DNA of 64,000 bases from Olleya sp. Bg11-27. Its GTDB lineage: Bacteria; Bacteroidota; Bacteroidia; Flavobacteriales; Flavobacteriaceae. Position 1 is the stretch's first letter, and each line of letters opens with the position of its first letter. A model generated the notes under the pieces. The model was not told where the DNA came from. It saw only the letters and a program-made list of their open reading frames with translations, and made no database searches. A program made the position numbers and the translations under genes. Of the stretch, positions 24,555 to 31,442 are shown one piece after another. The stretch lies in assembly GCF_002831645.1 (NCBI RefSeq), contig NZ_CP025117.1, forward strand, positions 4,231,001 to 4,295,000, written 5' to 3'.

Positions 24555-25148
24555 CTAAAATCCAAATCCTACAGAAAACTGCCATACTCTATTTTTAGGA
24601 GAGCCATCATCATAAATATCTCCTAATCCCAGATGGTAGCGCACCCCTAACGTCACGTTAGACTCTGTTTTAAAACCCACTCCAAAATTAACACCATAAT
24701 CAAAATTGTTTGGCTCAAACTCTTGAGACGTGTCAAACAAATTAAAATTACTATCATATGTTTCTTTATGAGAAATAGCATAACCTATTTGTGGCCCAGC
24801 TTCTAAATAAAACGTCCTTACTGGATACAGTTTTAAAGACAACGGTAGATTTATATAATTTAATTTTTGTGTAAATGTCCCACCATCAGTTTCAATTTGA
24901 TACCCTTGTTGAGAATACAAAGCTTCTATTTGTATAGACGCAAAATCTGTAATATAAGATTCGCCATAAACACCAACATGAAATCCACTACGTTGCCCTG
25001 TTTCTGTATCGCCGTCATATTGTACAGCTGCTAAATTATATCCCGCTTTAATACCTCCGTTAGATTTGCTTTTAATTGTTTGTTCTTGTCCGTTTACTGA
25101 AAATAGAGCACCAAAAAATAGGGCCATTAATATATATTGCTTTTTCAT
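24555..25148 (-). CDS. Outer-membrane beta-barrel protein
   Basis: 197 residues with signal peptide MKKQYILMALFFGALFSVNGQ. Alternating strands, GGIKAGYNLAAVQYDG near the start and terminal aromatic WQFSVGFGF mark a small PorT/OmpW-like outer-membrane barrel. It is the last gene of the reverse-strand arm of the ECF sigma cluster, 43 bp after the metzincin-like gene, and is probably co-transcribed with it. Confidence 0.8.
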   Translation of the reverse strand: MKKQYILMALFFGALFSVNGQEQTIKSKSNGGIKAGYNLAAVQYDGDTETGQRSGFHVGVYGESYITDFASIQIEALYSQQGYQIETDGGTFTQKLNYINLPLSLKLYPVRTFYLEAGPQIGYAISHKETYDSNFNLFDTSQEFEPNNFDYGVNFGVGFKTESNVTLGVRYHLGLGDIYDDGSPKNRVWQFSVGFGF

Positions 25149-25191: not shown

Positions 25192-25956
25192 TTATTTCCC
25201 GCCATTTGCCTGCAGATCTGCAATACATTGTGCATCTAATTGTGGTATCGCACCACCAGAGATCATGCCCATAGCACCGCCACCTGTTTCGGCCTGCCAG
25301 TACATTAAGCAACTATCAACATCACAATGTTTTGGATGGTCTGCATCTTCATGACTAGATTGCAACGCACTTCCTAAGTTTGTCAATCCTAATATATGTC
25401 CAAACTCGTGTGTGATTACCGTAGATTCTAATATTGGTGTTGTATTTGTAAAAGTTCCGGAGGTTAACTCCTCAATCGTTTCTTGATAAATCACAAAAGA
25501 GGTATTGCGATAAGCGGTACCAAGTACGACACCTGTATCGGTATTATTTCCCGACTCACCATCTGCAAAAAAGGCCCAAACTGCAATTTGATTATTGTTG
25601 TTATATAAGGTTCTATTATCGTCTTCAATAGCGGCTATTTCTTCATTAGAATAAGGAGATTGTCCTGGAGATGGGATTGCTCGTTTTTGTACCGTAATTC
25701 CGTCTGGCTTATGTGTTCTAGCCTCTAAAAAAGCAACAAAATTATTTACTGCTGTTTCTGAAGGTTCAAAGCCTTCAACATAAACAAGCTCTACAACCAA
25801 GCTAGAAAAGGTTGTATCAGACAACAAATCGTTTGCAGACACTCCCACAGATAATTGGTTTGCCATCTCAGTAGTATTAGAATTCGATGGCGTATCGTCA
25901 TTACTACATGATAACAATACAAATAACACTATACTTAAAACGCTTATCTTTTTCAT
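25192..25956 (-). CDS. Metzincin-like metallopeptidase lipoprotein
   Basis: The start is set at the ATG at 25954-25956, giving MKKISVLSIVLFVLLSC with lipobox Cys17; 25 codons upstream are open but lack a signal. The zinc site is HEFGHILGLTN, where the usual third histidine is Asn. Some 20 residues later comes HPKHCDVDSCLMYW, resembling the H-C-x4-C-x-M run of archaemetzincins but displaced by an insertion. The third ligand may be one of these later histidines. It is a predicted surface or periplasmic protease, between the repeat lipoprotein and the barrel gene. Confidence 0.78.
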   Translation of the reverse strand: MKKISVLSIVLFVLLSCSNDDTPSNSNTTEMANQLSVGVSANDLLSDTTFSSLVVELVYVEGFEPSETAVNNFVAFLEARTHKPDGITVQKRAIPSPGQSPYSNEEIAAIEDDNRTLYNNNNQIAVWAFFADGESGNNTDTGVVLGTAYRNTSFVIYQETIEELTSGTFTNTTPILESTVITHEFGHILGLTNLGSALQSSHEDADHPKHCDVDSCLMYWQAETGGGAMGMISGGAIPQLDAQCIADLQANGGK

Positions 25957-26045: not shown

Positions 26046-27104
26046 TTATATTTGGGTTAACACTAAAGTTAACGCTGCATTTGTTGTGCTTTGTAAAGAA
26101 ATTGAAGTACTACTAAAACTAGTCACTGCCCAGTTCTGGTTTAATAAATTAAAAGCTAAGTTTCCTGTAAACGATAAGTTTAAAAAGACTTCTGTCTCAG
26201 AGGTTACTTGGTAAGTCCCTAATACATCTTGTACTGTTGTACTTACTACATTGTCCGCAACTACTGATAAATCGTTAGCAAAATCTAAAGTAAACTCTGC
26301 AAAATCTATAGCTGTATCCACTCCTGCGTCAATAACAGATTCTACTTGAAAAACACCATCTACTAAAATAAGTTCTAATTCATCTGCTGCATTTTGTGCT
26401 TGCTCCTCTAGTCCTTCAATACCAAGACAATCTGTAATGGCAGCCTGTAATTCGGCATCACTATTAAAAGCTAAAGATTGTGTACTATCACCTTCAACAG
26501 TTGCTGTAATTGGGTAATTAATTGCAAATAATTGATCATTACCAAAGTCATTCATATACGTATATAATTGTTGCTCAGTATCGACAACAACACTACCGGT
26601 TTGTTCTAAACCTAAACTATACGTTAAAATAGTGATAGGAAAATCAAACGTTACACATGCTATTGCAGATTCGCCTGCTGCCTCTAAATCCTCACAAACT
26701 GCAAGAATTTCGTCATAATCGGATTGGCTAGCAATAACCACCTCTGTATAGTTACTTAGTGTTACAGCAAATGGAAACTGTAATACAACAGAATCGTCAT
26801 CCGTATTAAACTGCCCTAAAATATCGATAACCTGTTGGTAATCCGATTGGCTTATAATTGACACTTGCACACCATTAACTGTAGCCACAACAGGTAATAC
26901 TACAGAAGAGCAAGACGTATCATCTAAAAAGTCGTCAAAAGACCCATCATATGCAGAAGCACGTTCTAGATTTTTTGCTGTTTCAGAATTAGCTGAATTT
27001 GTATTTGGGTTATTTCCGTTTTCGTTATCAATTTCATCTTGACAAGATGTAAACGTTAATAATGACGTTAAAAATAATGCTGTAAATAATTTAAGATTTT
27101 TCAT
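26046..27104 (-). CDS. Repeat lipoprotein of the ECF sigma cluster
   Basis: 352 residues with lipoprotein signal MKNLKLFTALFLTSLLTFTSC (Cys21). The middle has about three degenerate repeats of 70-80 residues, each with a YP/FPhxVxL strand (LQFPFAVTL, FDFPITIL, INYPITATV) and a S-x-x-(D/E)-hydrophobic motif such as SQSDYQQVI and SQSDYDEIL, several ending in a Cys. No known catalytic motif. The likely promoter is the ECF-type element at 27188-27216, 84 bases upstream. An exposed ligand-binding or protease-substrate role is possible but not shown. Confidence 0.8.
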   Translation of the reverse strand: MKNLKLFTALFLTSLLTFTSCQDEIDNENGNNPNTNSANSETAKNLERASAYDGSFDDFLDDTSCSSVVLPVVATVNGVQVSIISQSDYQQVIDILGQFNTDDDSVVLQFPFAVTLSNYTEVVIASQSDYDEILAVCEDLEAAGESAIACVTFDFPITILTYSLGLEQTGSVVVDTEQQLYTYMNDFGNDQLFAINYPITATVEGDSTQSLAFNSDAELQAAITDCLGIEGLEEQAQNAADELELILVDGVFQVESVIDAGVDTAIDFAEFTLDFANDLSVVADNVVSTTVQDVLGTYQVTSETEVFLNLSFTGNLAFNLLNQNWAVTSFSSTSISLQSTTNAALTLVLTQI

Positions 27105-27187: not shown

Positions 27188-27216
27188 TAAGACAACTGGG
27201 TTATTTTTTACCCTAC
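27188..27216 (-). promoter_or_regulatory. ECF sigma promoter copy A
   Basis: Read on the minus strand it is GTAGGGTAAA (27216-27207), 11 bases, TTGTCTTA (27195-27188). It is identical in both boxes and spacing to the copies at 27354 and 27956. It faces the repeat lipoprotein gene. The minus-10 GTC and 15-base GGGTA-to-GTC distance are typical of ECF promoters. Confidence 0.75.
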
Positions 27217-27326
27217 CCTAAAATGTTAAATAATTGATTTATAATATAAATTGAAGCTACACAGCTTGATAATAGTATGATCAATAAAAAAGTTTCTACT
27301 ATTGTGATTAATTTTTCGGTTTCCAT
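27213..27326 (-). CDS. Small single-span membrane peptide (37 aa)
   Basis: ATG at 27324-27326 to TAG at 27213-27215. The peptide begins METEKLITIVETFLL and continues IILLSSCVASIYIINQL to a C-terminal Gly. It has a short acidic/basic head and one hydrophobic helix at about residues 6-29, with a Cys at 22. A purine-rich AAAAGATAAGAA stretch precedes the ATG. It starts 28 bases after the minus-10 of promoter copy B, and its stop codon overlaps the minus-35 box of copy A. The position makes real expression likely; the function is unknown. It could act on the FecR/sigma pair or the receptor. Confidence 0.55.
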   Translation of the reverse strand: METEKLITIVETFLLIILLSSCVASIYIINQLFNILG

Positions 27327-27353
27327 TTCTTATCTTTTGGATTAATACGACCT

Positions 27354-27382
27354 TAAGACAACACAAAATAATTTTACCCTAC
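27354..27382 (-). promoter_or_regulatory. ECF sigma promoter copy B
   Basis: On the minus strand: GTAGGGTAAA (27382-27373), 11 bases, TTGTCTTA (27361-27354), extended by AG. It lies directly upstream of the 37-residue ORF and between the divergent arms of the sigma cluster. Confidence 0.75.
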
Positions 27383-27435
27383 TTTTACAAAAAAATAATT
27401 CCCAAAAAAGAGTATTGAATCGCTTAACCTAATTT

Positions 27436-27951
27436 ATGATTGACAGTAAAAATAACCTTTGCGAAGAGCATTACTTCAGTAATTTTTATTTAGAGCACCT
27501 CCAGTCGGCAAGTAACTTTGCCTATTACAAATGCGGAGACAATGCTAAATCTTTAGATTTAGTACAGGATGCTTTTTCTAAAATATGGGAAAATTGTTCT
27601 AAAATAGAGTTCACAAAAGCAAAGACGTATCTGTTTACCTCTATTAATAATATGTTTTTAAATACCATCAAACATAATAAGGTGGTTATGGATTACGCCA
27701 AAGCAGCACCTTATATAGATCAAGACAATCAAAGTCCAGAATACTTATTAGAAGAAGAAGAATTTAAAGTGAAGCTACAAAATGCTATTGCTTTATTGAC
27801 GGATGGACAGCGTGAAGTGTTTTTATTAAATAGAATTGAAGGCAAAAAGTATCGTGAAATTGCTGTACTATTAGACCTCTCTCAAAAAGCGGTTGAAAAA
27901 CGAATGTCTGCTGCCTTAAAAACATTAAAGCAACACATAGAAAACATTTAA
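27436..27951 (+). CDS. ECF RNA polymerase sigma-70 factor
   Basis: 171 residues, normal for the FecI-like ECF group of Bacteroidota. Region 2 is visible (SLDLVQDAFSKIWENC) and region 4 ends with the helix-turn-helix YREIAVLLDLSQKAVEKRM. It directs polymerase to its own target promoters and is held inactive by the FecR-type protein encoded 52 bp downstream. The promoter-like motif sits just after its stop codon, so sigma can boost fecR and the receptor more than itself. Confidence 0.95.
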   Translation: MIDSKNNLCEEHYFSNFYLEHLQSASNFAYYKCGDNAKSLDLVQDAFSKIWENCSKIEFTKAKTYLFTSINNMFLNTIKHNKVVMDYAKAAPYIDQDNQSPEYLLEEEEFKVKLQNAIALLTDGQREVFLLNRIEGKKYREIAVLLDLSQKAVEKRMSAALKTLKQHIENI

Positions 27952-27955
27952 TAAA

Positions 27956-27984
27956 GTAGGGTAAACGAGTATTTAATTGTCTTA
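27956..27984 (+). promoter_or_regulatory. ECF sigma promoter copy C
   Basis: GTAGGGTAAA (27956-27965), 11 bases, TTGTCTTA (27977-27984), extended by AG. It starts 5 bases after the sigma stop codon and ends 19 bases before the fecR ATG, so the leader would be very short. Confidence 0.75.
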
Positions 27985-28003: not shown

Positions 28004-28915
28004 ATGAAAGAAGAAAACAACATATTAAAATGGTTTAATAATGACTTGTCTAAACAGGAGCTTGACGATTTAAAACAATCCGAGGACTTTAAAACTTTAG
28101 AAAAAATCAAGCATTATAGTGCACAAATGCAAGCTCCAAAAGTGGATGCACAACACGCATTAGAGGCTTTTAAAAACAGAAAACTAACTAAAACAGAACC
28201 CAAAGTCATTCCGTTGCACTTTAAAACCTTTTTTAAAGTTGCTGCTATGGTTATTGTTTTATTAGGCGTATCCTACTTTGCCTTTTTTAATAACACGACC
28301 AATTTTACCACACAAATTGCAGAGACAGAAACGTTACAGTTACCAGATCAATCCGAAGTAATATTAAACGCAAAGTCTAGTTTATCTTATAATAAAAAAA
28401 ATTGGGATGATCATCGCGATTTAACTTTAGACGGAGAAGCCTTTTTCAAGGTTAGTAAAGGTCAAAAATTTACTGTGACCACAGACGCCGGAATTGTTCA
28501 AGTGTTAGGAACACAATTTAACGTCAAAGAGCGTGACCATTATTTTGAAGTCATTTGTTACGAAGGTTTAGTTAGTGTCACCCATAATAATAAAACTGTA
28601 AAATTATCAAAAGGCAAAGGCTTTAAGGTGGTTAATGGTGTTATCCAATTAATAGACAACGATACTACCACAACGCCATCATGGTTGCAGGCCGAAAGTA
28701 GTTTTAACAAAATAGCATTACAAGAGGTCATTGCAGAGCTAGAGCGTCAATACCACGTGACTATCAAGGCACCTGCTATTGATATCAAACAATTATTTAC
28801 CGGTACGTTTACACACAACAACCTAAATACCGCTTTACAATCCATTACAATCCCTCTTAAAATAAGTTTTAAAATTGAAGGAAAAACAGTCACATTTTAT
28901 AAATATGAAGGGTAA
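28004..28915 (+). CDS. FecR-type anti-sigma factor
   Basis: 303 residues: a cytoplasmic N-terminal sigma-binding segment, one membrane helix at about residues 78-97 (FFKVAAMVIVLLGVSYFAFF), a periplasmic FecR domain (LPDQSEVILNAKSSLSY, GEAFFKV, VLGTQFNV) and a C-terminal DUF4974-like part (LQEVIAELERQYHV). It relays signals from the outer-membrane receptor to the sigma factor. Its end overlaps the receptor gene by 11 bp. Confidence 0.95.
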   Translation: MKEENNILKWFNNDLSKQELDDLKQSEDFKTLEKIKHYSAQMQAPKVDAQHALEAFKNRKLTKTEPKVIPLHFKTFFKVAAMVIVLLGVSYFAFFNNTTNFTTQIAETETLQLPDQSEVILNAKSSLSYNKKNWDDHRDLTLDGEAFFKVSKGQKFTVTTDAGIVQVLGTQFNVKERDHYFEVICYEGLVSVTHNNKTVKLSKGKGFKVVNGVIQLIDNDTTTTPSWLQAESSFNKIALQEVIAELERQYHVTIKAPAIDIKQLFTGTFTHNNLNTALQSITIPLKISFKIEGKTVTFYKYEG

Positions 28916-31442
28916 TTTCTGGCTAACCTGTTTTTGTTTAGTATTGGTTACTGTTAGTTTTGGTCAGACAGACAAACTGCCACTTGCAGACTACATTAAA
29001 ACGCTTCAATCAGAATTTAATGTCAAGTTCTCTTACGCGGTGGAGGATGTTGCTAATATTATAATTATAAAACCAGATACCGTATTAAATCTAGACGACA
29101 CGCTGGATTATTTAAACGCCAATACACTTTTAAATTTCAAGACTATTGACCAACGTTACATTACGGTTTCGGTATTAGAAAAAACAATTTCTATTTGCGG
29201 TACGGTATATTCTGCAACAGCAAACCAAAGTCTATTAGGTGCTTCTGTAATTATAAAAGGGACCACCAAAGGGACGACTACAAACTATAATGGTCAATTT
29301 CAGTTTAGTGATCTGCCATTAAATGCTACGCTTTCAATTTCTTACTTAGGGTTTGAATCCCAAGATGTGCTTGCTAAATATTTTTTCTCCGACAGTGAGC
29401 CCTGCAAACCAGTACGTCTAATTGAAAATAACGAAATGCTTAACGAGGTACTAATCACCAAGTATCTAACCACGGGTTTACAAAAGCTAATGGACGGAAG
29501 TCTGTTATTAAACACGGACCAATTTGGTATTTTACCAGGATTGATAGCGCCTGATATTTTACAATCCATACAAGCCCTTCCGGGAATAGAAAGTGTTAAT
29601 GAAAGCATTGCCAATATTAATGTAAGAGGAGGTACTAACGACCAAAACCTTATGCTTTGGGATGGTATTAAAATGTACCATTCGGGTCACTTTTTTGGAT
29701 TAATATCCGCTTACAATCCCAACTTAACCAATACAGTTGTGGTTACTAAAAACGGAACAAGCAGCCAATATAGCGATGGTGTATCTAGTACCATTAATAT
29801 GTTTACAAAAGACGAGCTTTCGCATACCATCTCCGGAGGTGCTGGTATAAACTTAATAAGCGCAGATGCTTTTTTAGAATTACCGATTACCAAAAAACTA
29901 GAGTTACACCTTTCCGGAAGACGGTCTATCACAGATGTATTTACCACACCGACTTACGATAATTATTTTGAAAGAAGTTTTCAGGATAGTGATATTAATA
30001 CCAACGCTAGTATTACAAATAGTAACACCCAATCCGATTTTGTGTTTTATGACTATTCTGCAAAAGTATTATTCGATTTAAATAAAAACCACAAGTTTAG
30101 AGCGAATGTTATTGGTATTAATAACACTTTAGATTATGCCGAAAGTATTACTGATAGCGAAAATACAACCACATCAAAAACTAGTAACCTCTCACAAAAC
30201 AATTTAGGTTACGGCGGAAATTGGCAAGCACAATGGACCGATAAATTCAGCACTATTGTGGCAGGAAGTTACTCGCAATACAATGTAGATGCTTCAGATT
30301 TACGTGTCCAAACGGATCAACGTTTAACACAAGCTAACGAGGTTTTAGAAACTGGAGTCCAGTTAAAAACTCAGTGGGCAATCACTAGCAATCTATCCTT
30401 TTTAAATGGATACCAGTTTGACGAAATCGGTATTCTAAACGAAACCACAGTTACAGCACCGTCTTATGATCGTACTAAAAAAGACGTATTACTTAATCAC
30501 GCCTTATTTTCTGAAGTCGAATACAATAAAAACAACACCTATTTCAGGATCGGTGTCCGTGCCAATTACTTTCAAAAGTTTAACCAGTTATTAATTGAAC
30601 CTCGCTTAAATATCAGACAAAAACTAAATAACCAATTCGCTTTAAAATTGGAAGGCGAATTTAAAAATCAGTCTGCCACACAAATAGTCGATTTTCAAGA
30701 TGATTTTTTAGGCGTGGAAAATAGACGTTGGATTTTAGCGGATAATGATGCCATACCAATCTCTAAAAGCAAACAAGCCTCTTTTGGTGTCGATTTTAAA
30801 CAGCATAATTTTAGTATTGATGTGACTAGTTTTTACAAAGTCGTTAACGGTATTACCGCCAGAAACCAAGGCTTCTATAACAACTTTCAATACCTCAACG
30901 CAACGGGTAATTACACTGCTAAAGGTCTCGAGTTTCTAGCCAATAAAACGGCGGATAATTTCAGTACTTGGCTAAGTTACACGTATAGTATTAACGATTA
31001 CGAGTTTGAAAGTTTTACGCCTTCCGTATTCCCAAACAATGTTGATATCCGACACTCCGTATCCTTGGCATTTAACTACACAGTATTAGATAACTTACAA
31101 CTTTCCCTTGGTGGGATTTGGCGTTCTGGTCAACCATACACTAAACCTTTGGAAGATAACCAAACCGTTAAAATCAACAACAATTACTATGTTAATTATG
31201 ACCAGCCCAATAGCAATAACGTCTCTCCTTTTTTTAGGATGGACACCTCAGCTAGTTACGATATCAACCTATCCGAGCAAACTAAATTGACTTTAAGAGC
31301 AGGTGTTAGAAATCTAACGAATCAAAACAATATAATCAATCGGTATTTTGAAGTCGATCCAGAAGACACTAACCAAACGATTGAAATCAACAACAAATCT
31401 TTAGGATTAACCCCAAACGTTAGTTTGCGTGTTAGTTTTTAA
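28905..31442 (+). CDS. TonB-dependent receptor with STN-like signalling domain
   Basis: The start is set at the ATG at 28905 (MKGNFWLTCFCLVLVTVSFGQ, a signal peptide); the frame opens 10 codons earlier inside fecR. Order: an STN-like N-terminal domain (YIKTLQSEFNVKFSYAV), a carboxypeptidase-like beta-sandwich (ISICGTVYSATANQSLLGAS), a plug (VNVRGG-type INVRGGTNDQNLMLWDGI) and a 22-strand-type barrel ending LRVSF. No SusD partner gene is adjacent, so a ligand other than a SusCD glycan is likely. The last 56 coding bases are part of a 61-bp sequence copied downstream. Confidence 0.93.
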   Translation: MKGNFWLTCFCLVLVTVSFGQTDKLPLADYIKTLQSEFNVKFSYAVEDVANIIIIKPDTVLNLDDTLDYLNANTLLNFKTIDQRYITVSVLEKTISICGTVYSATANQSLLGASVIIKGTTKGTTTNYNGQFQFSDLPLNATLSISYLGFESQDVLAKYFFSDSEPCKPVRLIENNEMLNEVLITKYLTTGLQKLMDGSLLLNTDQFGILPGLIAPDILQSIQALPGIESVNESIANINVRGGTNDQNLMLWDGIKMYHSGHFFGLISAYNPNLTNTVVVTKNGTSSQYSDGVSSTINMFTKDELSHTISGGAGINLISADAFLELPITKKLELHLSGRRSITDVFTTPTYDNYFERSFQDSDINTNASITNSNTQSDFVFYDYSAKVLFDLNKNHKFRANVIGINNTLDYAESITDSENTTTSKTSNLSQNNLGYGGNWQAQWTDKFSTIVAGSYSQYNVDASDLRVQTDQRLTQANEVLETGVQLKTQWAITSNLSFLNGYQFDEIGILNETTVTAPSYDRTKKDVLLNHALFSEVEYNKNNTYFRIGVRANYFQKFNQLLIEPRLNIRQKLNNQFALKLEGEFKNQSATQIVDFQDDFLGVENRRWILADNDAIPISKSKQASFGVDFKQHNFSIDVTSFYKVVNGITARNQGFYNNFQYLNATGNYTAKGLEFLANKTADNFSTWLSYTYSINDYEFESFTPSVFPNNVDIRHSVSLAFNYTVLDNLQLSLGGIWRSGQPYTKPLEDNQTVKINNNYYVNYDQPNSNNVSPFFRMDTSASYDINLSEQTKLTLRAGVRNLTNQNNIINRYFEVDPEDTNQTIEINNKSLGLTPNVSLRVSF

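Follow-up and report, generated by a model that had tools for sequence, protein, structure and literature searches.

Three identical bipartite sites as putative promoters of an ECF sigma/FecR/TonB-dependent receptor module conserved in Flavobacteriaceae

In the FecI/FecR/FecA system of Escherichia coli, a sigma factor, a FecR regulator and a receptor form one signaling set; the sigma gene is not autoregulated, and fecIR is co-transcribed by sigma-70, outside the FecI regulon (passages of PMC9249621). Iron-uptake sigma factors are described as activating neither their own gene nor that of the anti-sigma factor, with HasI of the Serratia marcescens haem-uptake system HasI/HasS/HasR as the contrast, because it induces its anti-sigma gene, hasS, and the receptor, but not itself (PMC9249621). 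The ECF/anti-sigma systems of Bacteroides polysaccharide loci combine a membrane-spanning anti-sigma factor with signaling through a TonB-dependent porin, and prediction of ECF promoters has been called a challenging task (passages of PMC3878776). The early hallmark of such promoters was AAC in the -35 box and CGT in the -10 box, rules that later ECF definitions dropped (passages of PMC8103513). Within the Flavobacteriaceae, an ECF-type promoter motif, SM6, has been described in Flavobacterium psychrophilum; CGT is its defining -10 box, and the motif is linked to genes of type IX secretion (passages of PMC9723704).

The module described here lies in a stretch of 64,000 nucleotides (the window; C1:4231001-4295000) of the 4.31-Mb genome of Olleya sp. 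Bg11-27 and is a variant of known FecR-type surface signaling, new in form. Its ECF sigma factor (171 aa; 27436..27951, plus strand) consists of sigma regions 2 and 4 only, with Pfam Sigma70_r2 at residues 18-81 and r4_2 at 113-164; the best NCBIfam model is TIGR02985, at 115 bits under its cut-off of 126. As in FecI/FecR/FecA-type signaling, the sigma gene is adjoined by a gene for a FecR-type sigma regulator with a membrane segment (303 aa; 28004..28915, plus strand; Pfam FecR and FecR_C, PF04773 and PF16344), the single hydrophobic segment being at about residues 75-95 as read by eye from the translation. The TonB-dependent receptor follows (28905..31442, plus strand, with its ATG read from the sequence), and has Pfam CarbopepD_reg_2, plug and barrel domains. 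As a candidate N-terminal signaling domain it has a FecR_C-like stretch, residues 25-89 matching the FecR_C model weakly (19.4 bits where the cut-off is 24.4; E 0.0011), and no STN match was listed at E 0.1 in the Pfam scan.

The divergent arm of the module, on the minus strand, encodes a 352-aa lipoprotein with a C-terminal lipocalin-like domain (26046..27104), a zinc metalloprotease lipoprotein of metzincin type (25192..25956; HEFGHILGLTN, fitting HExxHxxGxx, plus a Met-turn) and an outer-membrane beta-barrel protein (24555..25148; Pfam OMP_b-brl_2) that has a homologue in 71 of the 80 best loci introduced below. The protease and barrel genes both probably belong to the lipoprotein operon. 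A SusC/SusD polysaccharide locus was considered and rejected: a membrane-spanning regulator and a TonB-dependent receptor are shared with the Bacteroides systems, but no SusD family was found among the eight cluster proteins scanned with Pfam, and the receptor scores 63 bits against a SusC/RagA model whose cut-off is 368.

The first-pass annotation of this DNA had proposed three identical promoters, placed ahead of fecR and the receptor gene, a small ORF and the lipoprotein gene. All three copies of GTAGGGTAAA-N11-TTGTCTTA are exact, at the coordinates and on the strands it gave, and their placement was borne out. P3 (27956..27984, plus strand) is the putative promoter of fecR and the receptor gene and ends 19 nt before the fecR ATG (28004); P1 (27354..27382, minus strand), assigned to a 37-aa membrane protein, ends 27 nt before the ATG of that 37-codon ORF (27326); and P2 (27188..27216, minus strand), assigned to the lipoprotein operon, ends 83 nt before the lipoprotein ATG (27104). 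P1 and P2 share one orientation and are 166 bp apart, and the -35 box of P2 overlaps the TAG stop codon of the small ORF, a feature that the annotation had missed. It had also reported no further copies in the window, and none besides the three was found when up to 3 mismatches were allowed; dinucleotide shuffles of the window, 100 in number, gave a mean of 0.10 matches at that threshold, with a maximum of 2, so that none reached 3. A genome-wide search, set beforehand as a test of whether the motif is common at random positions, showed that it is not: the whole 4.31-Mb genome holds only P1, P2 and P3 at up to 2 mismatches (reversed control, 1), and the 4 additional matches at 3 mismatches are at chance level (reversed control, 10).

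The proposed fit to ECF promoters held in part. Orientation and placement of the sites at their genes are conserved, as described below, but the -35 box, GTAGGGTAAA, is without the textbook AAC, and the -10 box, TTGTCTTA, holds GTC and not CGT. The latter also sets the sites apart from SM6, and GGGTA does not occur in those portions of the main text of PMC9723704 that were consulted. The same source gives TAnnTTTG as the sigma-A -7 element of the family. Three stretches of the window were scanned for it (the gap between sigma and fecR, the divergent region and the plus strand ahead of sigma), and none contains such a box; the sigma gene's own promoter was therefore not found.

Conservation of the sites was assessed at loci selected by the sigma protein. 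Within the genus, 7 of the 10 Olleya genomes searched (our own included) have a close sigma orthologue, at 81-100% identity, and all 7 loci carry three sites, of which 20 of 21 are exact and one has a single mismatch. The main sample comprised the best 80 loci by sigma alignment A1, picked on sigma protein similarity and not on the motif, and including Olleya, Lacinutrix, Algibacter, Tamlana, Winogradskyella and many Flavobacterium. A site lies ahead of fecR in 80/80 of these. In 79 it has at most 3 mismatches and lies no more than 120 nt past the end of sigma (exact in 26, one mismatch in 36, two in 16 and three in 1); in the one remaining locus, L127, an exact site lies farther from sigma, at 226 nt, and precedes fecR by 18 nt. 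The divergent gene is likewise preceded by a site at up to 3 mismatches in all 78 loci with enough flanking sequence (44 exact, 16 with one, 14 with two, 4 with three). On the strand that would drive sigma itself, by contrast, none of the 78 has a site at up to 4 mismatches, the best candidate having at least 5 in every case. Permuted motifs were matched at up to 3 mismatches in 9 of 3,200 trials on the fecR side and 2 of 3,120 on the divergent side, rising to 31/3,200 and 67/3,120 at up to 4. A set of 24 loci outside the genus (L081-L104), fetched by sigma similarity and sharing some of its genomes with the best 80 loci, gave a fecR-side site at up to 3 mismatches in 23; L104 has none, and its best candidate is weaker. 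Comparing intergenic regions in relatives, as the annotation had suggested, shows sites preceding the same genes in the best 80 loci.

The fecR sites of the best 80 loci have an invariant TAGGG and TGTC, a variable spacer and a preference for A or G just before the -10 box. They end 16-23 nt from the fecR ATG in 79 of the 80 loci, which leaves too little room for another promoter there; in the remaining one the gap is 3 nt, perhaps from a misplaced start codon. A family-wide search found some match at up to 2 mismatches in at least 124 of 299 Flavobacteriaceae-level genomes, partly by chance, and a sister version, GTAGGGTAAA-N11-(T/C)TGTTTTA, is frequent among the matches listed.

Conservation alone cannot name the protein that binds the sites. 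The comparative data nevertheless support strongly, though indirectly, both the promoter nature of the sites and their assignment to the adjacent sigma factor, as the annotation had it. We consider it highly likely that P1, P2 and P3 are -35/-10 promoters for the ECF sigma factor whose gene lies between them, and that they represent most or all of its regulon.

The ORF downstream of P1 (27213..27326, minus strand) is conserved and would encode a single-helix membrane protein, METEKLITIVETFLLIILLSSCVASIYIINQLFNILG. The frame stays open for 37 codons both in the window and in all 6 other genus loci with a sigma orthologue. Across the seven Olleya loci, substitutions at the three codon positions number 200/64/269, and the median dN/dS is 0.18 (19 of 21 pairs). 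The shifted frames give 0.39 (+1) and 1.59 (+2), and because the +1 frame is also below 1, this test is supportive rather than absolute. Where tandem sites lie 145-180 bp apart in the best 80 loci, 15 of the 17 intervening segments hold a hydrophobic ORF of 26-45 aa, against about 0.06% expected from base shuffles; none of the 26 single-site loci has one at the equivalent place. The two exceptions, L127 and L130 (both Confluentibacter), keep the tandem sites with no open hydrophobic ORF between them. On this codon-level evidence the small ORF is under purifying selection, and we read it as encoding a real single-helix membrane protein that may act on FecR or on FecR cleavage. The principal alternative is that the ORF is a mere transcribed leader and P1 a second promoter of the lipoprotein operon. 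P1 and P2 are co-oriented, transcripts from P1 would enter the lipoprotein gene, and the low +1-frame ratio and the two segments lacking the ORF fit this as well; given the few second-position changes, the median dN/dS and the frequency of the ORF between tandem sites, we regard a mere leader as unlikely and retain the coding interpretation. In the third sigma clade (L049 and L050, minus strand upstream of sigma), what follows the divergent site is another small ORF, about 63 aa long, whose product looks soluble.

Paralogous sigma factors were examined at the window's locus and at 56 further loci obtained by whole-genome searches (57 in all), using a box search in one fixed register of 21 bp from start to start. 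Paired sites, one on the fecR side and one on the divergent side, each scoring at least 14 of 18, were found in 56 of the 57, with a consensus set drawn from those same loci; the exception is L112, where the divergent side has no site reaching 14. Shuffled regions reached 14 in 4/171 and 8/171 cases, and on both sides together in 0/171. The two sites of a locus resemble each other (16.1 of 18) more than sites of different loci do (13.7), a difference reached in 0 of 10,000 permutations. Clades whose helix reads SQK have GGGTAAA in 25/30 loci and TGTC in 29/30; STK clades have GGA or GGT with TGTT in 9/9; TTK or TSK clades have TCAGGAATTT with TTGTTATA in 2/2; and SVK clades have a mixed -35 tail, with TGTT in 12/14. 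Paralogous sigma clades carry their own site versions at a common 21-bp register. The link from residue to base is confounded by ancestry: the sigma tree holds only two changes of site class and one or two independent pairs, so that clade-specific pairing is supported and a residue code is not.

These data bear on the possibility that P1-P3, as ECF promoters, answer mainly to a different ECF sigma factor of the cell, or to several. In the Olleya genome the sigma query finds 7 matches, this sigma counted, and an overlap of ECF regulons is regarded as possible in F. psychrophilum (passages of PMC9723704). Loci chosen by this sigma factor nevertheless have the sites, and a separate site version belongs to the module of the closest paralogue, a locus of the same layout (G000:C1:3991582-3992220; L040) with two exact copies; we judge service mainly by other sigma factors to be quite improbable. 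The paralogue's site version also has a near match 30 kb from its module (G000:C1:3961212-3961241, minus strand), where a reversed control gives one too; the 175-codon ORF that it precedes is possibly a third target of the paralogue, or the match is chance. Very improbable, too, is that the boxes serve as an operator, bound by an activator or repressor, and not as a core promoter: transcription factors also fit bipartite conserved sites of fixed spacing, but the space before the fecR ATG has no place for a separate promoter, the sigma-fecR gap has no TAnnTTTG box, the boxes are not palindromic and face the gene in the sites counted, the site version tracks the sigma clade, and sigma is the sole DNA-binding protein widely shared among the nine window genes queried.

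Recognition by the adjacent sigma factor would imply the following circuit. The TonB-dependent receptor would sense a signal and pass it to FecR, upon which sigma would be released or activated. RNA polymerase carrying sigma would then start fecR and the receptor gene from P3, the gene for the 37-aa single-helix membrane protein from P1, and the genes for the lipocalin-like lipoprotein, the metzincin-type protease and the outer-membrane barrel from P2. Sigma would be supplied from another promoter, and FecR could also be produced by read-through from sigma. Induction of regulator and sensor would provide a built-in brake; as the sigma gene is without a site, the loop would have this brake but no direct self-amplification. 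We infer sigma binding, the transcription starts, the operon structure, the direction of FecR action and the feedback; the sequences of the sites, their conservation and placement, their movement with genes and their clade-specific versions are observed.

The wiring so predicted appears to resemble HasI/HasS rather than FecI/FecR. With FecI/FecR/FecA the module shares the sigma/FecR/receptor set and a sigma gene that would not be autoregulated, whereas fecR here has its own sigma-type site, unlike fecIR of E. coli; judged by sites, not transcripts, the anti-sigma gene falls within the regulon of its sigma factor. As in HasI/HasS/HasR, an ECF sigma factor, a FecR-type regulator and a TonB-dependent receptor occur together, and the sites predict induction of the regulator and receptor genes but not of sigma. 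Serratia marcescens and Olleya belong to different phyla, and the promoter sequence and the cargo of the two systems differ. The HasI arrangement is a deviation in PMC9249621, whereas here it is suggested by the fecR-side site in all of the best 80 loci, and the account of HasI in section 22 of that paper describes no lipoprotein/protease operon or small membrane protein of the kind present here.

Where genes have been inserted or duplicated, the sites have moved along with them. Four loci (L131, L132, L134 and L138) have the lipoprotein in two copies with a site before each; in L138, a site pair with a small hydrophobic ORF between precedes the outer copy, and in L178 an exact site belongs to the barrel gene alone. 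Relatives including L127, L128 and L132 have a further putative target, an exported His/Cys/Tyr-rich protein. It is about 150 aa long, contains Tyr-rich stretches and, in 14 of 16 copies, the motif HCxxHCHH, has no Pfam match above cut-off and is possibly metal-binding. A site with up to 2 mismatches lies 28-52 nt upstream of its gene in 16/16 copies found by a protein pattern, which was derived from site-led copies, so that the 16 are not an independent sample; in all, 19 loci have a site before an ORF of this kind. The search of the Olleya genome itself returned no copy, an empty answer that is weak evidence. Separately, the lipoprotein mRNA leader of relatives has a short hairpin near the start (e.g., L196:5235-5301, minus strand), with a mean fold over 71 distinct leaders of -4.4 kcal/mol against -1.7 kcal/mol after shuffling (mean z -2.0, compared with +0.45 for a control stretch); the window's own leader folds weakly (-2.4).

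Paired sites in 56 of the 57 loci, found from the sigma-fecR gap and the divergent gene, mean that such regulons are readable from sequence. They also reveal what looks like feedback through the anti-sigma factor, shared by many genera, and a small membrane protein whose gene, at just 37 codons, is easy to overlook. As a tentative wider picture, the Flavobacteriaceae may hold insulated sigma/FecR modules in which recognition helix and promoters were re-tuned jointly within each sigma clade, at one fixed register, with fecR but not sigma self-controlled, and to which several genera added a separately promoted membrane protein of 30-42 aa that might tune FecR signaling or intramembrane cleavage. 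The cargo, made up of a lipocalin-like lipoprotein at the surface, a metzincin protease and the His/Cys/Tyr-rich, possibly metal-binding protein of relatives, would then point to the sensing of a metal or a metal carrier.
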